Assembly: GCF_035083965.1 (NCBI RefSeq)
Contig: NC_089726.1
Coordinates: 8,375,501-8,439,500 of the forward strand
Direction of reading: 5' to 3'
From: Branchiostoma lanceolatum
Taxonomy: Eukaryota > Chordata > Leptocardii > Amphioxiformes > Branchiostomatidae
Length of the DNA: 64,000 nucleotides
In this document: piece after piece, positions 745-62,639 of the stretch
Layout of the letters: every line of letters begins with the position of its first letter
Numbering within the stretch: the first letter of the stretch is position 1
Made by a program: the position numbers and the translations under genes
The notes under the pieces: model-generated
Databases searched by the model: none
The model's input: the letters and a program-made list of their open reading frames with translations, nothing else
Told to the model about the DNA's origin: nothing

Positions 745-3255
745 AAAGAGCCACATACTCCCAGGTAAGATGATTGTCTGTATCTGGAAAACTGCCACGA
801 GGGGCTGAAATTGAAAATGCTGTCTCTTTTCAAGGAGAAAGACTTTCGGAATTAAAATTTGCGTACTGTTATATGTGATAACTATCTTAACACCAGAGTG
901 CTTAATTCAGCCAAAGAGAAACGCACCCAAGCATCATTATAGAAAACTGCCACGAGAGGCTGAAGTGGAAAATGGTGTCTCTTTTGAAGGAGAAAGGCTT
1001 TTGAAATGGAACTTTGTGGCTCTCTGATCTACACAGTGAATGGAATTTTTTGGCTCTTTCATCTACACAGTACCCGTACTGTCATATCTGATAACTATCT
1101 TAAAACCAGAGTGCTTAATTAAGCCAAAGAGACACGCCCCCAAGCATCATTAAGGAAAACTGTCACGAGGGGCTGAAATGGAAAATGGTGTCTCTTTTGA
1201 AGGAGAAAGGCTTTTGGAATGGAATTTTTTGGCTCTTTCATCTACACAGTACCCGTACTGTCATATCTGATAACTATCTTAGAGCCAGTGTGCTTAATTA
1301 AGCCAAAGAGACACGCCCCCAAAGCATCATTAAGGATTACTGTCACGAGGGGCTGAAATGGAAAATGGTGTCTCTTTTGAAGGAGAAAGGCTTTTGGAAT
1401 GGAATTTTTTGGCTCTCTCATCTACACAGTACCCGTACTGTCATATCTGATAACTATCTTAGAACCAGAGTGCTTAATTAAGCCAAAGAGACACGCCCCC
1501 AAAGCATCATTAAGGAAAACTGTCACGAGGGGCTGAAATGGAAAATGGTGTCTCTTTTGAAGGAGAAAGGCTTTTGGAATGGAATTTTTTGGCTCTTTCA
1601 TCTACACAGTACCCGTACTGTCATATCTGATAACTATCTTAGAACCAGTGTGCTTAATTAAGCCAAAGAGACACGCCCCCAAAGCATCATTAAGGAAAAC
1701 TGTCACGAGGGGCTGAAATGGAAAATGGTGTCTCTTTTGAAGGAGAAAGGCTTTTGGAATGGAATTTTTTGGCTCTTTCATCTACACAGTACCCGTACTG
1801 TCATATCTGATAACTATCTTAACACCAGTGTGCTTAATTAAGCCAAAGAGACACGCCCCCAAAGCATCATTAAGGAAAACTGTCACGAGGGGCTGAAATG
1901 GAAAATGGTGTCTCTTTTGAGGGAGAAAGGCTTTTGGAATGGAATTTTTTGGCTCTTTCATCTACACAGTACCCGTACTGTCATATCTGATAACTATCTT
2001 AGAACCAGTGTGCTTAATTAAGCCAAAGAGACACGCCCCCAAAGCATCATTAAGGAAAACTGTCACGAGGGGCTGAAATGGAAAATGGTGTCTCTTTTGA
2101 GGGAGAAAGGCTTTTGGAATGGAATTTTTTGGCTCTTTCATCTACACAGTACCCGTACTGTCATATCTGATAACTATCTTAGAACCAGAGTGCTTAATTA
2201 AGCCAAAGAGACACGCCCCCAAGCATCATTAAGGAAAACTGCCACGAGAGGCTGAAATTGAAAATGGTGTCTCTTTTCAAGGAGAAAGACTTTGGGAATG
2301 GAGCTTTTTGGCTCTCTGATCTAGACAGTACTCATACTGTCATATCTGAAAACTATTTTAACACCAGTGTGCTTAATTAAGCCAAAGAGACACGCCCCCA
2401 AAGCATCATTAGAGAAAACTGCCACGAGAGGCTGAAAATGAAAATGGTGTCTCTTTTGAAGGAGAAAGGCTTTTGGAATGAAACGTTTTGGCTCTGTCAT
2501 CTACACAGTACGTGCCCGTACTGTCATATCTGATAACTATCTTAACATCAGTGTGCTTAATTAAGCCCAAGAGACACGTCTCCAAGCATCATTATAGAAA
2601 ACTGTCACGAGAGGCTGAATTTGAAAATGGTGGCTCTTTTGAAGGAGAAAGGCTTTCGGAATGGAATTTTTTAGCTCTGACATCTACACAGTAACCGTAC
2701 TGTTATATGTGATAACTATCTTAACACCAGTGTGCTTAATTATCCCAAAGAGACACGCCCCCAAGCATCATTATGGAAAAGTGCCACGAGAGGCTGAATT
2801 TGAAAATGGTGGCTCTTTTCAAGGAGAAAGGCTTTTGGAATAGAATTTTCTTTCTTTTTCATTTACACAGTACCTGTACTATTATATATGATAACTATCT
2901 TAGCACAAATGTGCTTAATCATCCCAAAGAGCTCACCCCCAATTTGGCCCCAAAGCATCATTATAGAAAACTGTCACGAGAGGCTGAAATTGAAAATGGT
3001 GTCTCTTTTCACAGAAAAAGGCTTTTGGAATGATTTTTTTTTGCTCTTTCATATACACAGTACCTGTAATGTTATATCTGATAATTATCTTAACACATGT
3101 GTGCTTAATCTTCCCTAAAGAGCCACGCTCCAAAGCATCATTAAGGAAAAGTGCCACGAGAGGCTGAATTTGAAAATGGTGGCTCTTTTCAAGAAGAAAT
3201 ACTTTGGGAACAGAATTTTTTGCCCTCTCAATCACACAGTACACATACTGAGAAC
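745..3255. repeat. 180-bp tandem satellite array, about 14 units
   Basis: The segment GGCTGAAATGGAAAATGGTG and its variants recurs near 800, 960, 1172, 1352, 1532, 1712, 1892, 2072, 2251, 2431, 2613, 2793, 2982 and 3161. The spacing is exactly 180 in the centre. Each unit also carries CTACACAGTACCCGTACTGT, a run TGCTTAATTAAGCC that is nearly self-complementary, and CACGCCCCCAAAGCATCATT. Units between about 1140 and 2220 differ by only a few bases, while units at both edges are clearly diverged. Short frames run through the units but shift between them, so no protein is called. Confidence 0.95.
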
Positions 3256-10019: not shown

Positions 10020-11255
10020 TACGACCTTGTCCTCGTATGACCTGACATCTTGTGCTTCCGATTTCCTGATGAACCGATTAATAGCCATCCTTTCTGTGAC
10101 GTCGTAAAAGAAGTGGGTATTTATAGTCATAGATGGGACCAGATCTGTGATCCTCGGAGTGTGCTCTTTTCGTCCTTGGTTTTATATCCATACCTGTATG
10201 CATCTTCGGCTGCAGCACTTGTGAAGATTCTCCGAAAGTAGAAACGCCCAGTGTATATCATACTGAGTCAACATTCTAGGTATATCTTTCTCCCGTCGCC
10301 TTGCGTTTCGTAACGTTTTGTTTGCAAAGCCTGCCTTCTTATTTGTCCTCCCGAGGAATTCCTTCATATCACAAGTCTTCTCCCCTCCTTTCTTTGACTC
10401 CTTCTGATCTGTCCTTAACTGACCTGAGCTGAGGTCAGGGAGGCTTTGGGTGGATGCCAGCTTTTCTTCCCTTCCGGCTCGACAAGGCCTAAGAAAAAAA
10501 TTGTGTTTTCGGTTACGGCACTGAAAGAAAAGTAGGTCAGTAGGGATTCTGTGTGTGTGTGCCTTTATGAAAATGTGCAAGACGTCTTCGATTCTGTTTT
10601 GAATATTAATCAACAAGATGCCAGATCAAAAATTTGATGTACACATGTATCTCGCTAGCGGTAGACTACAAAATGCTTCTGCTAGTGCTAGGGTCGGTCG
10701 AGTAACCAGAAACAGAACATTTTTTTCCAAGGCCCAAGCCGTCAAGGTCAGAGGCTGGACATTCGATAGACTGATAACGGGCCGGAAATGGCGCCTGTGT
10801 GATAAAGCGTGTTGTAATCCATGATCATCCGGTCAGACAACTCCCTATCACTCCAGTAACGTTCAATATGGTGGCCGTTAAGGGCGATCAACAGGACGGA
10901 GAAATTCGGCCACTTTTAGAGGAAGACAGTGGGCAGAATTACGCCTCGATCAACGACGACCGCGTCCACACAACCGACGACAGACCGAAATGTCGTGTGT
11001 ACAAGCGACGCTGGTACATCGTGGGGTTATTCTCTATGTTGGCGTCGATGCAATGCACCATCGGCAACACCTGGGGACCGATCGCGGACTCGGCTGGGGT
11101 GGTGCTGGGCTGGACGGACAGTAACATCGCTCTAGTCAACAACTTTGGCTGTTTCTCCTACGTTCTGCTGGCCGTCCCGTTTTCATGGCTACTGGATGTA
11201 AAAGGTAAACTGCAGCGCATTTCCTAACTCAAATATTTTTCATGTATATATTTAT
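10020..11255 (+). repeat. tandem duplication unit A (promoter + exon 1a of SLC49A4)
   Basis: This unit aligns with 11283-12575 from the upstream block GACCTTGTCCTC...GATGACCTG, through GGGAC/GACGTCGTA, CAGATCTGT, GTGTGC, TATGCATCTTCGGCT and TCTCCCG, to the ATG, the whole first exon, and about 45 bases of intron 1. Putative promoter and 5' UTR are therefore duplicated together with the exon. Upstream blocks are much more diverged than the coding part. Confidence 0.85.
10868..11204 (+). CDS. SLC49A4: alternative first coding exon 1a of SLC49A4
   Basis: ATG 10868 opens 112 codons plus one base before the GT donor at 11205. It encodes a cytosolic head with an acidic dileucine signal (EIRPLL), then KRRWYIVGLFS opening TM1, the NTWGPI signature of the SLC49A4 group, and the start of TM2 (FSYVLLAVPFSWLLDVK). 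Phase 1 at its end matches exon 2 at 12994, the same acceptor exon 1b needs. Joined to the ten shared exons it gives a 503-residue protein. It differs from 1b mainly in the head and in the two membrane segments. Confidence 0.8.
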
Positions 11256-11282: not shown

Positions 11283-12575
11283 TTGTGACCTTGTCCTCAG
11301 ATGACCTGGCATCTTGGGCTTTGGCTTTCCTGAACACATCCGTCAAATAACAGTCATTCTTTCTTTCTTTCTGGGACGTCGTAGAAGAACTAGATTTTCA
11401 TAGTCATATTAATCATATTTTGATGGACCCAGATCTGTCATCATCAGAGTGTGCCTTTTTCGCTCTCTCTTTCTTATTATCCATCCATGTATGCATCTTC
11501 GGCTACAGTGACCTGTAATTCCCTGAAAATCGAAACGCACAGATATAATTTGTATTTTTGTTGCGGCAACATTTCAGGGCATAGAGTACTCTATCTATCT
11601 CCCGACGCCTGGCGTTTCTTTGCGTGTCTCTTGCAGGGCCTTAATGGATAACTTATCCTCTGTCCTCGTATTGAGCAACTTCTCACAAGACCCCGATGAT
11701 CCCTGCGACTCCTGGTCTGTCCTTAATTCCTTTCCATGACACGAGGTCACCGCGTCAGGGTGACCTGGATGCCAGACCCCCGATCTCTATCATTTCTATC
11801 GTTTCTCAGGGTCTAAGTTAACTCTGGGGGCCTGTTGTAGAATTTCCCTGGGGCATGTTAGCCATAGAGCCGAGGAGTTGGCCTGTGTAGGTCCTGGAAA
11901 CAGTCTGGTATCCAGACTAGGTTCAGGAAGACCTTGGGAAGACTGATTTTGAGCCGGCCTTTCTTCCCTCCCCCAACAGGCCGTTTTAAGTCCAAAGACA
12001 ATCGGACATTTCATGGATGGATACGGGAGCGTTGCGTCGTTGTACAATCAGCTGTTGCACATGACCTTCCACTTCCCTTGTGTACGACATCGGAGCGTAC
12101 GCTTATTGTAATTCATGCACAGCCGGTCTGACAACTTAACTCCCTATCACTTCACTTGATCACGTCCAAGATGGCGGACGTTAAGGGCGACCAACAGGAC
12201 GACCAGCAGTACGATGAAATCCGACCGCTTCTGGGGGAAGACAGTGGACAGAACTGCGGACAGAACTACGCCTCGGTCAATGACGACATCGACGGCGTTC
12301 CCGGACCGGAATGCCGTGTGTACAAGCGACGCTGGTACATTGTGGGGTTATTTTCATTGTTGGGGTCAACGCACTGCGCCATTAGCAACACCTGGGGACC
12401 GATCGCGGACTCGGCTGGGGTGGTGCTGGGCTGGACGGACAGTAACATCGCTCTCGTCAACAACTGTGACAGTTTCTCCTACATTTTGTTAGCCATCCCG
12501 TTTTCATGGCTACTGGATGTCAAAGGTAGGGTACATGGCGGTACGGTACCCGAATATTTCCATGTATTTACAGGT
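11283..12575 (+). repeat. tandem duplication unit B (promoter + exon 1b of SLC49A4)
   Basis: Second unit of the duplication described for 10020-11255. Its upstream part keeps the same order of blocks but carries extra sequence between about 11640 and 12060. The end of homology in intron 1 is near the block GAATATTTCCATGTATTTA, matched by AAATATTTTTCATGTATATA after exon 1a. Confidence 0.85.
12171..12525 (+). CDS. SLC49A4: alternative first coding exon 1b of SLC49A4
   Basis: ATG 12171 sits in a good start context (CCAAGATGG). The exon encodes 118 codons plus one base, with the same EIRPLL signal, KRRWYIVGLFS, NTWGPI and a TM2 start FSYILLAIPFS. Compared with 1a, the head has a six-residue insertion around QNCGQNY, and TM1/TM2 residues change (LLGSTHCAIS for MLASMQCTIG; NNCDSFSYI for NNFGCFSYV). 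It is the copy nearer to exon 2 and carries the better start context, so it may be the main form. Confidence 0.85.
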
Positions 12576-15500: not shown

Positions 15501-17879
15501 AATGTCCTCAAATTCTGTCGTAAATCTGTCGTGCGATGACTGTGACAGACTCCGACTACTCACTATACTAGAGAGGTCTAAAACGGTGAGGTAAATGTGT
15601 GAAATCAGTTTGACAGACATTTGAAAAGTCTAGGTAACGTGGTTAAGATTCAAAGTAGCAAGTCTATTACAAGAGAAAGGTACAGACACTTTGTACCATT
15701 AGTATAGCTACCTTGTGTTGACAATGTAATGTTTTCGTCCCTGTTAGTTATACTAGTACTTCATACACTTTGTTAGATTTAGAGACTTAGACAGAAGTCC
15801 TAGCATTCCTGTTGAACTGGAGCTTGGTTCGAATTTATTCATGTAACGTTACATTTGACAATATCTACACAGGTTCAGGCCGGCTGGGTGGGGTTTTACG
15901 GAAATTTGATCGGCTGTGCTTCCTCCTTCGTCTTAGCAAGGTACGTGTAGAAGATAGATACTTATTCTTTGCTTAAAATTGCCTGACGTTTCAGTTTTGT
16001 AATTCCTTTATATCAGATGTCCCTGTGGCTGAGGTGGTAGTAACCTCACAGTTGAGCTCCTGTTTCCAATTAGTTGGTAACTTGGAGAGCCTTGTTTCAA
16101 GTCCCGGGGTCGTCTCGGTTGGGACTGCACCGTCTTTCGGAAGGGACGTAAAGTTGGGGTCCCGTGTTCGAGTGGGGATGATTCAAGCACGTTAAATGGA
16201 AAAAGCTAGCAACCCCTCCCTGTAAAGACATACCCTGCTACTGAAACAGAAAGGAAACTTGCTGACCTATGTGGTACTTGACACTGCGAGGTGAACAATA
16301 ACAACAGTGTTTGTATGTTCCCACAATATTATCGTAGCAGACTCAAAGGAGAGTGAAAGAATGATTACGTGGCTATGTAATATTATCTTTCCCAGACTGG
16401 GAGACTACTTTGCCGGCCACTTCAAGCTGATGTTGGTTCTCCTGGCTCTGCTGCAGGCAGGCACCATGCTGTGGTTCACCTTCATGGTCAACATCAACCT
16501 CATACCGTTCAACATGGGTATGTTAGGCCCTCTTTCCTACTAGACGGCGATCGCTGAGCGACCATACAGCGACCAAAATCGGATTTTTGTAACCCTTCAT
16601 TTCATAATTGGAAGATGATGCACGTGATGTAAAATGTGATTTAAAAGACAACAAACAACACAAAACATAAAAGGCCAGCTCAGCTTTCAGATCATTGCCA
16701 CAGTATCATGACAAACGATTTTTTTTCACGTTCAGCGTCGCTGTACACCACCTTCGCCCTGACCCAGGTGTGTCTCAGCGGCTCCGCGCCGATATTTTAC
16801 GAGATGTCGGCTGAGATCACCTACCCTGTAGCGGAGGGCATCACTACCATGGTGCTGACTTTGGTGTACTACATCTTCTGTCTCCTGGTTCTTTTCCTTC
16901 CCATGATCCCAGCTCTTGGTAAGAAAAAGACTTTCTTAAAGCCCTAGGGTGTGATTACATTATAATTGGAATCAACATTAGTGTAAAATGAGATTGATGT
17001 GAATCGACAGTAGCAATCTCAAAGCATTTTTAGGAAAACAGCAAAAAGTCAACTCGAAATTCTTTGTGGCCTTCGTACCGTTTTGACGTAAGACGTTGCA
17101 GGTATGACGCTTCATTTTGAGTAGAAAGTTGACTAAAGTTTATAACTGTATCAAGTCTCAAAATTCAAACTGTAAGTAAAACATGTCATGCAGTGATGGT
17201 ATGTGTAGTATTGATACAATGAGTTTTATACTTTATATATCTGTTTTATACTTTTATACTTTATACATTTTGACTTTATTATCTAGTTGGTAGTTCTTCT
17301 GTGTCTCATAAGACAGTATACTATATTGGCACGACAAGCGAACAAGGACTTTCATAGTCTGCAAATTTAAAAAAACAGATTTAACCCATCTACAAATAAT
17401 AATAGTAATACTGTATAGATGTGTCAACGGGTGGGTTTTTACTTCCGTCAGTCTACGCTGCAATTTCTAAAATCTGAATGCAAGGTAATACCAAGCAACT
17501 GGGTAGATTTTGAAAACGGCCAGACGTTTTAGGTAGCATCCACTACCTTTCGTCAGTGACTACCTTGAATGACGAAAGGTACATGCAGTGGGCCATGCTG
17601 CCTGAAACGTCTGACCGTTTCCAAAATCTATGCAGAGCAACTGACACCTTGCGTTCAGATGTTAGAAACTTATTACCCGGATGTCTAACCTTCATCGACG
17701 TAACATCTGCACATTCCGTGATTCCAGGAGTGGCCTGGGTGAACTGGACCACCCTCGGAGCGACGTTTGTGGTCATCCCCATGTTGTTCTGCTTCAAGGA
17801 GAGATACGGACGTTTGTCTATCGACGTGACGGGCATTAAGGAGAAAGACGTTTCCCCAGACTCAGACGTTAACACATGA
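12171..17879 (+). CDS. SLC49A4: SLC49A4 (DIRC2)-like lysosomal MFS transporter
   Basis: Exons: 12171-12525 (1b, or 10868-11204 as 1a), 12994-13084, 13630-13857, 14147-14190, 14326-14373, 14876-15005, 15262-15370, 15873-15940, 16396-16517, 16736-16918, 17728-17879. All junctions are GT-AG and phases agree, giving 509 residues (503 with 1a); human SLC49A4 is 478. Family signatures in order are NTWGPI, GTGMRC, a PERATATAIA-like block (PEQRTTATAIAGLLG), AGWVGFYGNLIGC, PIFYEMSAEITYPVAEG and the C-terminal CFKERYGRLSIDV. SLC49A4 is a 12-TM MFS protein of lysosomal membranes, reported to move pyridoxine; transport here is inferred from orthology. The acidic dileucine EIRPLL near the N-terminus is the expected lysosomal sorting signal and is kept in both first exons. 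A second gene (P450) converges from the right. Confidence 0.9.
16018..16310 (+). mobile_element. tRNA-derived SINE, copy 1
   Basis: The head contains a Pol III-like A-box region (TGGCTGAGGTGGTAG) and a B-box-like GTTTCAAGTCCC. Downstream blocks TTTCGGAAGGGACGTAAAGT, GCTAGCAACCCCTCCCTGTA, ACCCTGCTACTGAAACAG and AAGGAAACTTGCTGACC recur at 43225-43505 and, inverted, at 57135-57390. It lies in an intron of SLC49A4. Confidence 0.75.
16537..16670 (+). mobile_element. truncated copy of the CACTAGACGGCGATCGC MITE family
   Basis: The left terminus (CTAGACGGCGATCGCTGAGC) and the internal block TTTCATAATTGGAA are present, followed by the ACAACAAACAACACAAAAC block. The right half seen in the full copies at 41331, 51812, 54437 and 61158 is missing. 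Located in the SLC49A4 intron before the last-but-one exon. Confidence 0.7.
17494..17645. mobile_element. palindromic MITE, copy 1 (AAGCAACTGG family)
   Basis: The arms begin AAGCAACTGGGTAGATTTTG and contain GGTAGCATCCACTACCTTTCG; the right half is the inverted, more diverged copy. The same element, better conserved, is at 33209-33348. This copy ends about 80 bases before the last exon of SLC49A4. Confidence 0.7.
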
Positions 17880-30845: not shown

Positions 30846-33800
30846 ATGAACAGCAAGATTAATCTCATCCATACTCCAGCAGGAAAGATGTACGACCCCA
30901 ATGCAGATCTTTTGACCATCGAGCAGATCTCCGGTGCCAGACAGGTGCTGCAGACCAGTGGACTGTGCCACCACACACCCCTACTGCACCATGTACAGAC
31001 TCTGTGTGGGCTGGACACGGACATAGATCTGTACCTCAAACTGGAGAACATGCAGAACACAGGTTTGGGGTTTTCTTCCAGTTTTACGCATCTTTCCAAC
31101 CCTTCTCTTGTATGACAAAAATATGAAGTAAAAGTGTTGGTAGGAGAAATGTTGGACATACTTTTATTACCTATTTTCTTTAGATACATGTACATTGATT
31201 TCAATGTAGGAGTGGTAAGATGCTGTTTTAAGTAGGACAAGTATTCTGCCATTGTCTTTTTCAGTTTAATCTATATTATATGCACATATTCGTTGGACAA
31301 AGTGCTATATACAATTTGTATGTATTCATTAATACCAGTACTTTACTGTAATATCATAGTGACTTGGAAGGCTATGCAGGTTTTGAGTCACAGACATACA
31401 TGTCATGTATGTTTGTGACTCAAAACCCACAGCAACGAACAATGTATTGATAGTTTCAATTTGTATGTGATTTTGGCTTTATAATATTATATTCATATAA
31501 GGAGGATATCCTTGATTCATAACATCTTTGACTGATTTTTCAGGCTCCTTTAAGATCCGAGGAGTAGTGAATCAGATGGCTCACATCCCGGACTCCGCGG
31601 CCCGAGGACAGACACATCTCATCAGCATGTCTGCTGGGAACTTTGGGAAGGCGTTTGCCTACATGGTGCAACAGAAGGGTCTGAAGGGGACGGTGTTCAT
31701 GCCTGACACTGCGCCTGTCAACAGGGCAGAGCTCATCAAGGTGGGAGCCTGTGTTTTGTGGTACTGTAAATTGAATCAAGTTCACAGGCACTGTAGAAAG
31801 AGAAAGGAGGCATTCAGGGTGTTTAGAGTTTGCTTTTGTAACGCAAGACATAACGTAATGTTTGGTGTGATGAGGTCACAGTGAGAGGTAGCCGCAATAA
31901 CAGAAAACAATTAAAACCACACAGAAAATATTTCTCAATCTACAGTAATTAAGATAATTTGCTCTATAGTCTTCTTTGAAAGAGACCAAAGCATATACAG
32001 AGAGCAATATAATGTTAACAGGCTTGAAAGACATCCATTTGTAAGTGTATACCCGGTATATAAAATAGATGCCACTGCTATTCTTAAAGTACTGATGATG
32101 TTTTCAATGAGTGGCACACTTGTACCAGGTAATGACTGTTCTAAACTTGAAGATGTATCCCCTATTTCATGTAAGATGTCTTTCACACTGACTGCTTCTT
32201 ACCATTGTTACTTATCTGAAATTGTGTCTTTTTATATTGATGATTGATGATATTGCTGACAGAGTTATGGTGTGGATGTGGAGACACTGCCCATGGCTGA
32301 GTTGGAGCCTGCAATGGACAAGTGTCTCAGGATTAGCAACATGATGAAACTTAATCAGGATAACATCGATATCATGGCTGGGAATGCCAGGTCAGTCTGC
32401 TGGACCAGACCAAATAACCGTGATTGTGACTGACACTAACCCTTATCCACCTCACTGACCACTGATGAGCCACTGATTCACATGTACAGAAGCTAGATCA
32501 GCTGGTCCACAGGAAATCTTAAGGCTGAGTTACCTTTCAAAATGTACTGGTGTAGTGTCAGGCGGTCAAGGGTCATTTCCAAGCAGATATAAAGATCTGG
32601 CTCATTTTCAGTGAAATACACATGATTTTGAAACATATAGGGCACCTTTCAGGTAGAGCACCTTTTGGAGGAGGCAAAGAGTTTTAAAGGGCGTGCACTA
32701 CCTGAAAAACACTGAGACTGAGCTGGTTCCATACATCTGCTTGGAAATTTAAGAGTTAAGGTTTTGTATATTCATGTTCTGTAGAGTTATGGTTTGGATG
32801 TGGAGAGAATGCCCACCTCAGAGCTGCAGCCTGCGGTGGACAGGTGTGTGAGGGAGAGGCACATGCACTACCTGCACCCGTTCGACGATATCAACCTCAT
32901 GGCAGGACACGGCAGGTTAGTAGGTGTGCCTCTCCCTCGATACAGTTTATATTATAAACTGCATGGGGATCTCCCCTATATACAAGAAAAGGTGTGGGGA
33001 CGATTTTAACTTTTGATTTAAACACCTTTTCTTGTATAGGGGAGATCCCCATGCATCTCTGTTTCTATAGCCCTTGAGCAACACAGGCCAATACATTAGT
33101 GGGTTAGCACTAAAAGATTGTCTGAAGTATTACAGACAGACCCACAATCTACATTAATCATTTTGTAGCAGTTAAGAAAGCTTTTACAGTAATAAGTTAT
33201 GTGATGAGTTACTCAAGCAACTGGATAGATTTTGGAAATGGTCTGACATTTCAGGTAGCATCCACTGCACTCAGTGTCACTACCGAAAGGTAGTGGATGC
33301 TACCAGAAACGTTTGACTGTTCCAAAATCTATCCAATTGCTTGAGTAATTGTTATCATGCATTTTACTACGAAAACTAAAGTTACACTTTTAGATCTACC
33401 AAAACTGTCTAAATATGGGTATTTTGTATGTTGATTGCATCAAAGTTAGCCTTGATAGTACGTGTATGGAAGAAAGAGGGAGCAGTTTTGTTGTTGGTAG
33501 ATACATACGCTAGTAGGCTGTAAAATCATTTTGTGATGTTTTGTTCCTTGTGTGCCTGTCAGTGTTGGACTGGAGATTCTGGAGGACATTCCTGACCCTG
33601 ATGTGGTGGTGGTGTGCTGTGGAGGGGGAGGTTTACTAGGTGGAACAGCTGCAGCAATCAAGCTGTCTGGATTGAGTGACACAAGAGTTTACGGGGTGGA
33701 ACCAGAGGGGGGTGAGCGATGTTTGGAATAGCCTTTGATACATCATCATCTATTGATTAAATATTATTTAGTTGAAGATCTACATCATGAATTCCTGTAT

Positions 33801-34686
33801 ACAGTGTAGACTAAAATATTTTGTTATACATGTTTTATGATAAAAGACTGTATGTACTGTGTAATTTCTGCAATGGGAATTGTTAGTCAAGACTTGCAGT
33901 ACTTGACAGAATCCAGGAAGACTTGAAGTGTGTTTTATGCACACAAGTAAATGAGGATATCTGAATGAAGGATCAAGTTTCGAAGTAGAGATGTGTCATG
34001 ATAGTGACTGATCAATTTTTCTCCACTTTTGATGTTGTGCTGCAGCGCCCTCTATGTATGAGAGCAGAAAGGCAGGGAAACCTGTGGGAGTGCAAGTGAA
34101 GACCATAGCAGCAGGACTGGCACCACCATATGCAGGTAATTAAGACAATGTCTCTGTCAGCATTCTTTCAAGTTTCTCCTTTCAGAAATATTTTGTTTTA
34201 AAGGAATTATCAGATGTTATGTAGCATTAAGGTCTTTATGTTTGGCTTTCTTTTGTCTTCTTAAATTGAGGTGAAGCATGATGATTTTTCAAATACACTG
34301 TAGCTACTATAGTCAAATCACTTATGCCATGGGGCATGTTATGTTATTAGAAGTAATTATGAACTACAGTGGTGCATTCTACTTCATGCTCATGCTATAA
34401 TTCTTCATGAGACTGACTACAACCAACGGTATTTCTCCCTACAGGTCCAAATGCTTACAAACACAACATGGCATTTGTGGAGGATGTCGTTCTTGTCAGC
34501 GATGACGAGATTGTTACAGCCGTGAAGCGGTTGTTTTCACGCGGACTGGTGGTCGAGCCATCGGGCGCGGCGGCCTTCACTGCACTAATGTTTGGGAAGA
34601 TACCAGACGTCAAAGGGAAGAAGGTTGTTGTTGTGATAACTGGAGGGAACGTCACAACTCAAGAACTGTCTAAGATTTGTGGATAA
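30846..34686 (+). CDS. fold-type II PLP enzyme, threonine/serine dehydratase - serine racemase group
   Basis: Exons: 30846-31062, 31544-31740, then either 32263-32390 (3a) or 32785-32915 (3b), 33563-33711, 34046-34135, 34445-34686. Phases agree and give 341 residues with 3b or 340 with 3a; human serine racemase has 340. The PLP lysine is in SFKIRG (about Lys76), followed by SAGNFG (102-107), the phosphate loop GGGGLLGG (about 202-209) and the C-terminal ITGGNV. The residue matching Ser84 of serine racemase is Ala, as in threonine dehydratases, and the metal-ligand position after VEPEGA is Ser, not Asp. I therefore favour a cytosolic amino-acid ammonia-lyase over a racemase. The exact substrate is unresolved. 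Transcription diverges from SEC13. Confidence 0.88.
31380..31426. repeat. 47-bp near-perfect hairpin in intron 1 of the PLP enzyme
   Basis: GTTTTGAGTCACAGACATAC and its inverted copy GTATGTTTGTGACTCAAAAC abut around a short centre. One mismatch is visible. Confidence 0.8.
32263..32390 (+). CDS. alternative exon 3a of the PLP enzyme
   Basis: 128 bases between acceptor AG (32261-32262) and donor GT (32391). It enters in phase 0 and leaves in phase 2. It encodes SYGVDVETLPMAELEPAMDK and ends DNIDIMAGNAR. The HPFDD block found in 3b and in most relatives is replaced by KLNQDNID. The frame is open and both splice sites are intact. Confidence 0.8.
32785..32915 (+). CDS. alternative exon 3b of the PLP enzyme
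   Basis: 131 bases between acceptor AG (32783-32784) and donor GT (32916), with the same phases as 3a. It encodes SYGLDVERMPTSELQPAVDR and ends HPFDDINLMAGHGR, which is closer to the family consensus (HPFDD...AGQG) than 3a. Using both exons together would shift the frame, so they must be alternatives. Confidence 0.85.
32961..33054. repeat. 94-bp inverted repeat in intron after exon 3b
   Basis: GCATGGGGATCTCCCCTATA continuing to ACAAGAAAAGGTGT has its inverted copy at 33022-33054. Arms are about 33 bases with a spacer of about 27. Confidence 0.8.
33209..33348. mobile_element. palindromic MITE, copy 2 (AAGCAACTGG family)
   Basis: Ends TTACTCAAGCAACTGGATAG and the inverted ATCCAATTGCTTGAGTAA enclose a 140-bp palindrome with GGTAGCATCCACT repeated inverted in the centre. 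It is related to 17494-17645. Confidence 0.8.
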
Positions 34687-35248
34687 CATTTGTTTGGAAA
34701 ATACTTAGTTAATAATTGGTAGCCACAGCAATCCACTACAATTTTTGATACATGAATCTCAGGAATAATGATACAACTGATTCATATTGAATTTGCATAA
34801 TGTTAAAGGTATTGAATTTATTTAATGCATTTCATTATTGTCTTCTACTGTTGCTTTTATAAAGAATGATCTTCCTCTGAGAAAGCAAGTTGCGAGAGTT
34901 TGCCTGCATTGATTCGCCTTACATATGGGACACAATGGTGTCACCTAATATGTGAAACTGAACCTGTCAAAAATCTTTGAAAATGTCTCATTGTATCTTG
35001 TAAGGAAGAACTTAGATAAATATCTGTTGAGCCATACCCAATGTTTGAAAGGACATACAATTCTCATTGTTATGAATTCATGTTTGTCAGAAGGTTATCC
35101 ACTGGGATCAATCCACTCACAATTATCTACTCGTATCACATAGCTGATATGTGTACGACTCTGTGGAATTTTTTTCCGGCTTGAGCAAAAATTATACGGG
35201 GAAACTACAAGCAAACGGGACGTAAACATGCACGATTTTAAGCGTCTA
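34687..35248. other. 3' region of the PLP enzyme
   Basis: No coding segment was recognised. The first few hundred bases should be 3' UTR; no canonical AATAAA was seen before 35248. Confidence 0.4.
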
Positions 35249-35440
35249 ACACTGCACGAAATGGCCTCGTATCCCGGCGTATACGTACAGGGATTCCTCC
35301 GGAAATATTCCATATCCCGGTGCGGATTTAGCGTATCCGTTAATTTTATCGGATACGCTAAATCCGCACCGGGATATGGAATATTTCCGGAGGAATCCCT
35401 GTACGTATACGCCGGGATACGAGGCCATTTCGTGCAGTGT
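35249..35440. repeat. perfect palindrome, 91-bp arms with 10-bp spacer
   Basis: From ACACTGCACGAAATGGCCTC to the centre GTATCCG, every base of the left arm is mirrored in the right arm. The spacer is 35340-35349. The same open frame is therefore readable on both strands, which explains twin frames of about 70 codons; neither is taken as a gene. Confidence 0.9.
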
Positions 35441-35619: not shown

Positions 35620-35792
35620 TAATGACCCACCTGTTCCTTGGTGTATATAATGTCATAACACCTGGTCATGTGCTATAACCATCGAATAAAACCACCGTGT
35701 GAGCGAAGCGAACGAGGTGGTTTTATTCGATGGTTATAGCACATGACCAGGCGTTATGACACCATATACACCATGGAACAGGCGGGTCATTA
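35620..35792. mobile_element. palindromic MITE, ~75-bp arms
   Basis: TTAATGACCCACCTGTTCC at the left and its near-inverse GGAACAGGCGGGTCATTAA at the right enclose arms with GGTCATGTGCTATAACCATC in both orientations. The centre is CGTGTGAGCGAAGCGAACGA. The ends suggest a TTAA or TA target. Confidence 0.85.
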
Positions 35793-62028: not shown

Positions 62029-62133
62029 CTGAACGTCAAGAGTTTGACACGTCGTGCGAAGTGCAAAGTACCGTACAATACAAAACTTTTCGCGACTCTG
62101 CACTCAGCACAACTCACCAAACTTTTGACGTTC
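62029..62133. mobile_element. short inverted-repeat element
   Basis: CTGAACGTCAAGAGTTTG and the inverted CAAACTTTTGACGTTCAG bound an imperfect palindrome with inner GTGCAAAGT/ACTCTGCAC-type pairing. It sits inside a unit related to the neighbouring minisatellite. Confidence 0.6.
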
Positions 62134-62164
62134 AGTACAAGGGATGGGCCCAGAATAGTTCTTA

Positions 62165-62600
62165 GTAATAGTGTTTCAGCACCAGAGACAGGCTCACAAC
62201 AGCCGTAGATAACAGTGTTTCAGTACCTGGGACGGGCCTACAATAGTTCTTAGTGACAGTGGTTCAGTGCCAGAGACCGGCCACAATGGTTCTTAGTAAC
62301 AGTGTTTCAGCACCAGGTACAGGCCCACAACAGTCCTTAGCAACAGTGTTTCAGCACCAGGGACAGGCCCACAACATTCCTTATTAACAGTGTTTCAGCA
62401 CCAGGGACAGGCCCACAACATTCCTTAGTAACAGTGTTTCAGCACCAGGGAAAGGCCCACAACAGTCCTTAGTAACAGTGTTTCAGCACCAGGGACAGGC
62501 CCACAACAGTCCTTAGTAACAGTGTTTCAGCACCAGGGACAGGCCCACAACAGTCCTTAGTAACAGTGTTGCAGTACCAGAGACACGCTCACAACAGCCG
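62165..62600. repeat. 44-bp minisatellite, about ten units
   Basis: The unit AACAGTGTTTCAGCACCAGG followed by GACAGGCCCACAACA and GTCCTTAGT repeats every 44 bases; central units are almost identical. Related isolated units lie near 60480-60550 and, inverted, near 62010-62030. Confidence 0.9.
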
Positions 62601-62639
62601 TAGATAACAGCCGTAGAGACAGGACCCCAACAATCTTAG

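Follow-up and report, generated by a model that had tools for sequence, protein, structure and literature searches.

Tandem exon 3 copies in a probable fold-type II dehydratase gene of Branchiostoma lanceolatum: a candidate pair of alternative exons around the active-site loop

The locus described here raises the question of whether a PLP-enzyme gene that carries two copies of its third exon produces one protein or two. The gene occupies positions 30846-34687 on the plus strand of the window, the 64,000-nucleotide stretch of B. lanceolatum DNA that was analyzed (contig NC_089726.1, positions 8,375,501 to 8,439,500). It has seven coding exons, including both copies of exon 3, all on the plus strand and with limits set from the open frames and the GT-AG sites. 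Coding exon 1 (30846-31062) starts with an ATG at 30846 and continues as an open frame up to a CAG/gtttgg donor. Exon 2 (31544-31740) holds the SFKIRG lysine motif and an SAGN motif, which has an Ala at the position of Ser84 in serine racemase. The first copy of exon 3, exon 3a (32263-32390, 128 nt), encodes SYGVDVETLPMAELEPAMDKCLRISNMMKLNQDNIDIMAGNA plus two bases, and is separated by a GT-AG intron of 394 nt (32391-32784) from the more family-like copy, exon 3b (32785-32915, 131 nt), which encodes SYGLDVERMPTSELQPAVDRCVRERHMHYLHPFDDINLMAGHG plus two bases. Exon 4 (33563-33711) contains the GGGG motif, identified as the phosphate-binding loop (PMC6424897). Exon 5 (34046-34135) is an open frame with GT-AG sites, and exon 6 (34445-34687) includes the stop codon at 34684-34686.

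Exon 2 ends in phase 0, both 3a and 3b are entered in phase 0, and each leaves two bases of a codon whose third base is supplied by exon 4. Transcripts with a single copy are open and encode 340 amino acids with 3a or 341 with 3b. When 3a and 3b are joined, a stop is found at codon 203 (32849-32851, inside 3b), 303 nt before the last junction, and when exon 3 is skipped a stop is found at codon 149 (33593-33595, inside exon 4), 206 nt before the last junction. Since the joint and the skipped forms both stop early, exactly one copy of exon 3 is needed for a full protein. Premature stops located so far upstream of the last exon junction are expected to lead to nonsense-mediated decay. The initial annotation had placed both exons at these coordinates, with these lengths, splice sites and entry and exit phases, and had stated that they share an SYG-DVE start and that double inclusion breaks the frame, leaving single inclusion as the only open outcome. 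The frames and GT-AG sites agree with all of this, and both copies open with SYG(V/L)DVE.

A tblastn search of the window with each copy retrieved the other one at 48.8% amino acid identity (E about 2e-11 and 6e-11) and gave no sign of a third copy in the window, the next matches being chance-like (E 0.21 and 4.6). A repeat search found 77% nucleotide identity across 83 nt from the acceptor AG onward. With the missing codon of 3a placed at the site of highest identity, 39 of 126 aligned coding positions differ between the copies, and the pairwise dN and dS were 0.32-0.44 and 0.87-0.98 across eight gap placings. The first block has 12 amino acid differences in 27 positions and the last block has 8 in 13, and the only indel, which makes 3a one codon shorter than 3b, is in frame. 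In the flanks, the copies are identical at 12 of the 60 positions upstream and at 22 of the 60 downstream, and local alignments of the 300-nt flanks were no better than those of shuffled sequences (29 and 54 of 100 shuffles reached the observed scores). Diverged copies inserted between unrelated introns point to an old tandem exon duplication and not to haplotypes set side by side. Polymorphic genomes can yield artefacts in which two haplotypes are joined, but the coding divergence and the dissimilar introns make such an assembly error scarcely credible as the source of the second copy. The tandem duplication proposed in the initial annotation is thus borne out by the amino acid identity and the phases, with the flank comparison speaking against an artefact. 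The two exons display the adjacency, similarity, near-equal length and common frame by which mutually exclusive pairs are recognized (PMC5740500), and neither joint inclusion (stop at codon 203) nor skipping (stop at codon 149) is productive. Among human mutually exclusive clusters, 60% contain exons whose length is not a multiple of three, and exclusive splicing is absent from many human neighbours that resemble each other (PMC5740500). We estimate a probability of roughly 60% that the tandem-duplicated exon 3 of this fold-type II dehydratase gene provides two alternative exons and hence two isoforms, with 3a presumably in use and the two copies presumably exclusive.

The predicted proteins match the Pfam PALP family with E values of 7.7e-68 (with exon 3b) and 3e-64 (with exon 3a). 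With scores of 229.4 and 217.6 bits, where the cut-off is 35, and with SFKIRG and GGGG present, they belong among the fold-type II PLP enzymes. Among proteins of solved structure, the best matches are TdcB, a catabolic threonine dehydratase (2gn0), and the Dictyostelium serine racemase (6lut). Ala103 aligns with the re-face base of serine racemase, Ser84, and Lys108 with Gln89, while the equivalent of Arg135 is Gln153 in the 3b isoform and Glu153 in the 3a isoform. In the human serine racemase, the S84A substitution blocks racemisation and retains L-Ser elimination (PMC9001717). Membership in the serine racemases was ruled out by the Ala at Ser84, and Arg135 and Gln89 are also replaced. Because of this Ala, a racemase reading, to which the D-Ser assay suggested in the initial annotation alludes, is unlikely for either isoform. 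Of the interpretation given there, the duplication, the shared phases and the requirement for one copy only are supported. None of the NCBIfam models among the matches listed (the best 25 of 43 for 3b and the best 25 of 44 for 3a) reached its curated cut-off. The best score among them was 233.4 bits where 378.75 are needed, the models being bacterial or archaeal. The equivalog scores do not assign the protein to the TdcB/IlvA threonine/serine ammonia-lyases, on cut-offs that belong to models built for bacteria and archaea. The best-supported class is a beta-eliminating dehydratase of the L-Ser/L-Thr type and of fold-type II, with a substrate that is putative because the protein falls under these curated cut-offs. 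The viral contigs scanned gave one pattern match and no relative, and the phage records queried with the DNA of exon 3b gave no match.

Exon 3 corresponds, by alignment, to residues 120-164 of the human serine racemase, in a numbering adjusted to that of PMC6424897 at Arg135 and His152. In serine racemase, residues 78-155 make up the small domain, and from 157 on the chain is again part of the large domain (PMC6333871); with these limits, the end of exon 3 falls at the crossover from the small to the large domain, in keeping with the earlier description of this segment as one that links the two domains near the active site. Residues 152-155 form a loop above the PLP imine, in which changes shift the preference for Ser or Asp and the balance of racemisation and elimination; within the serine/aspartate racemase family, this loop is described as one of the main features that decide which substrate is used and which reaction is run (PMC6424897). 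The published specificity loop lies within the swapped exon. The contrast in motifs that had been reported for this region was found as described, with HPFDD...AGHG in 3b and KLNQDNID...AGNA in 3a. When the loop of 3a is anchored on AGNA, LNQD takes the place of HPFD at 152-155; in the HMMER alignment to the human serine racemase, the NQ of 3a falls instead on Asn154-Gln155 and gives the loop a racemase-like look. The register of this loop is ambiguous.

To describe the conservation of this block, the best 80 of at least 565 prokaryotic relatives were kept, two were dropped due to a stop in the translated match, and 78 were aligned. The residues of the first half of the block are His (in 67 of the 78), Pro (62), Phe (61), Asp (58) and Asp (70), and those of the second half are Ala (72), Gly (78), Gln (76) and Gly (77). 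Exon 3b retains 8 of these 9 strongly conserved residues, the exception being a His for Gln. Exon 3a retains 3 of 9, namely the first Asp, Ala and Gly, a count that is the same in the MAFFT and the AGNA-anchored registers, and its final Ala for Gly is found in one of the 78 relatives. Upstream of the block, 3a and 3b diverge about equally from the prokaryotic consensus.

The reduced block leads to an alternative explanation in which 3a is a relic duplicate, seldom or no longer spliced in, and the gene yields the 3b isoform only. Exon 3a lacks the His, Pro and Phe of the block as well as its second Asp and its last Gly, each of which is kept by 61 to 77 of the 78 prokaryotic relatives; the exon is one codon shorter, and its acceptor has the weakest pyrimidine count nearby. 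The frame of 3a is nonetheless open, with its indel in frame, intact splice sites, a donor that fits at 8 of 9 positions and a long AG-free zone ahead of the exon. Differences between the copies are more frequent per synonymous than per nonsynonymous site (Fisher p 0.016 for all codons and 0.001 when only the last 13 are counted, from rounded counts), and the first 27 codons by themselves, in favor of a relic, show no constraint (Fisher p 0.53). In a one-branch neutral simulation in which all 39 differences were placed on 3a (400 stop-free runs), the family-profile score of 3a, 277.1 bits, compared with a simulated mean of 259 (P 0.0025), and its conservative-substitution score gave P 0.0075; the number of amino acid changes was not significantly low (21 versus a neutral mean of 23.6, P 0.155). 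A two-branch simulation was also carried out, in which 3a changed neutrally and 3b under constraint (600 runs per setting). At the rate that reproduced about 39 differences, the profile test gave P 0.014-0.016 and the conservative-substitution score was not significant (P 0.14-0.28). At lower assumed rates, which produced fewer differences than observed, the profile P weakened to 0.04-0.14. An open 3a frame is expected in 41-46% of the matched-rate runs, so that the absence of stops is weak evidence. In these comparisons the chosen gap slightly flatters 3a and 3b was used in place of the unknown ancestor. The results indicate with moderate confidence a past coding constraint on 3a, which has no bearing on its present use. 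The simulations disfavour the view of 3a as a decayed relic, since at the matched rate it fits the family better than neutral drift predicts, and on balance we consider this explanation unlikely, although it deserves attention.

The splice sites bear on whether 3a can be used as one of two alternative exons. The donors of 3a and 3b each fit MAG/GTRAGT at 8 of 9 positions, and none of the six donors of the gene is better. Near the 3a acceptor, 8 of 16 positions are pyrimidines, the poorest count in the gene, the other five acceptors having 11 of 16 each. The acceptor is preceded by an AG-free zone of 85 nt (32176-32260, plus strand) that includes a pyrimidine-rich tract and a CTGAC whose A is located 72 nt upstream of the exon. 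Among the 181 intronic AGs of the gene, the 3a acceptor is the only one with so long an AG-free zone, and 21 of the 3743 inter-AG gaps across the window are this long. This layout, in which branch points were judged by motif only, suggests a candidate distant branch point. Exon 4b of OGDH has been described with the same layout (PMC7969005). Steric exclusion, which takes fewer than 50 nt from donor to branch point as its criterion, and U2/U12 incompatibility were considered as causes of exclusivity and found unsupported, given the 394-nt intron, the AG-free zone of 22 nt before 3b and the GT-AG introns. These mechanisms operate in a minority of human mutually exclusive clusters (PMC5740500), so they are not strictly defining.

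At the donor of 3b, a hairpin is predicted (32845-32944, plus strand) in which the exon segment 32845-32875 pairs with 32912-32944 through 29 pairs. In the minimum-energy fold, all but one of the 9 donor bases lie within the hairpin. Folded alone, the hairpin has an energy of -52.4 kcal/mol, and the pairing probability of its core was about 1.0 in all five contexts, which ranged from 176 to 2168 nt. Its z-score was -5.1, with none of 200 shuffles as stable, compared with -1.4 for the equivalent stretch of 3a. The mean unpaired probability was 0.12 for the 3b donor, 0.22 for that of 3a and 0.33-0.48 for the other four. Given its length, the stem, which includes codons of the exon, may be a target of double-stranded RNA editing.

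Whether this structure participates in the choice of exon is a separate matter. It could be without any such role, as a by-product of a recent template switch or a target of adenosine deamination, an interpretation compatible with the other readings. The intron segment 32918-32944 is nearly an inverted copy of the exon segment 32845-32870, with 24 of 26 exon bases paired, and for this reason the hairpin may be young. Hairpins are also common in the DNA of the window: perfect stems of at least 12 nt number 25 among those listed, some of them overlapping, whereas 10 mononucleotide block shuffles yielded 0-2 apiece, and 8 of 726 plus-strand segments of 176 nt equal or exceed the hairpin region in folding stability. 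Considering these frequencies, the location on one of the six donors could be due to chance. Against this stands the finding that among 30 donor-like plus-strand sites, a set that includes 3b itself, the stability of the 3b donor is reached at one and its degree of pairing at one. A hairpin with no part in exon choice is in our opinion a serious contender with somewhat less than even chances. The stronger proposal, that RNA folding at the 3b donor lets the gene alternate between an ordinary dehydratase and a second form whose active-site loop is rebuilt, with a new substrate, reaction balance or regulatory role, is rather unlikely as it stands. Among competing structures of the docking-selector type, which do not accompany every mutually exclusive pair, the best in this one sequence reached -22.6 kcal/mol for the exon arm and -24.6 kcal/mol for the intron arm, versus -40.9 kcal/mol for the arms of the hairpin.

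The two-isoform reading can be formulated as follows. Exon 3 was duplicated in tandem and gave rise to two alternative exons, from which the cell would make two isoforms, the joint and skipped forms being discarded, probably by nonsense-mediated decay. The 3b isoform would be an ordinary beta-eliminating enzyme of the L-Ser/L-Thr type. The 3a isoform, in which LNQD replaces HPFD, AGNA replaces AGHG and the residue equivalent to Arg135 is Glu where 3b has Gln, would have an altered activity or none, and might play the part of a regulatory subunit. Two elements would decide which copy is used: a regulated 3a acceptor served by a distant branch point, and the hairpin, which would keep the 3b donor hidden as long as nothing melts, binds or outpaces it. 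For the hairpin, a regulated switch is our leading guess. In favor of two isoforms we count the frames, the amino acid identity of the copies, their unrelated introns, the well-fitting donors, the AG-free zone and the hairpin at 3b. On the opposite side are the weak selection signal, the poor pyrimidine content at 3a, the few block residues retained by this exon and a 3a donor that is itself fairly paired. A hairpin masking the donor of the family-like exon would also be odd if 3b is the main form. Yet another explanation is that 3a acts as a poison switch, with joint inclusion or mis-splicing triggering decay and setting the dose of the enzyme, and owes its value to this instead of to a second isoform. 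The stop at codon 203 of the joint form, well before the last junction, agrees with this function, and a masked 3b donor could favor non-productive products. For such a purpose, however, the retained coding similarity and the matching phase would be unneeded, and the family fit of 3a is above neutral at the matched rate; we regard this explanation as quite improbable.

Paired exons of this type are well known, with PKM (exons 9 and 10) and OGDH (exons 4a and 4b) as precedents in which alternative exons swap a segment of a metabolic enzyme. OGDH also resembles the present gene in its long AG-free zone and distant branch points, but these branch points are located in the intron between the two exons, 25-41 nt from the 4a donor (PMC7969005), whereas here the long zone lies upstream of the first copy, 3a, whose use is presumed, and the zone before 3b is short. 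TdcB, serine racemase and aspartate racemase have the same PALP fold-type II, with the loop 152-155 in the region that corresponds to the swapped exon. Serine racemase differs in having Ser84 and Gln89 where Ala and Lys are found here. In the serine/aspartate racemase family the loop varies between genes; in this gene it would vary by exon choice. Stems that embed a donor, would hinder U1 and regulate the use of the exon occur at exon 10 of tau and at exon 7 in spinal muscular atrophy (PMC7404189). The one at 3b differs from them in that it is a prediction, has 29 pairs and is formed with the exon itself. In the titles and abstract openings of the matches listed, no earlier account was found of this gene, or of paired exons of this sort in any PLP dehydratase or racemase. 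Most likely, then, this is a real alternative exon pair in a known style, in a gene that we have not seen described in this way and at an unusually informative site of the protein.

If 3a is used, the two products would constitute a natural matched pair of enzymes that differ only inside a segment of 42-43 residues bearing the loop 152-155. They would permit a direct test of chemistry steered by this loop, and the exon choice would represent a splice-regulated control on the breakdown of serine or threonine. The donor hairpin would be a compact and testable switch.

Other features were observed in the window. The intron after 3b contains a hairpin element (33209-33348) with a related stretch at 17489-17560, perhaps a small mobile foldback element. 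Just downstream of the enzyme gene there are two foldback elements, one at 35249-35440 with a perfect stem of 91 bp and a loop of 10 nt, and another at 35661-35751 with a stem of 36 bp and a loop of 19 nt. To the left of the gene and on the opposite strand, a fragment at 27288-27593 matches SEC13 (E 1.1e-19). A second tandem duplication, of an exon or a gene, is represented by 10983-11207 and 12304-12528, which are 89.8% identical over 225 nt and lie each within a longer open reading frame. We take these open reading frames to resemble a membrane transporter. Two tandem arrays are present, at 862-3250 with a repeat unit of about 180 nt and at 62131-62610 with one of about 44 nt.
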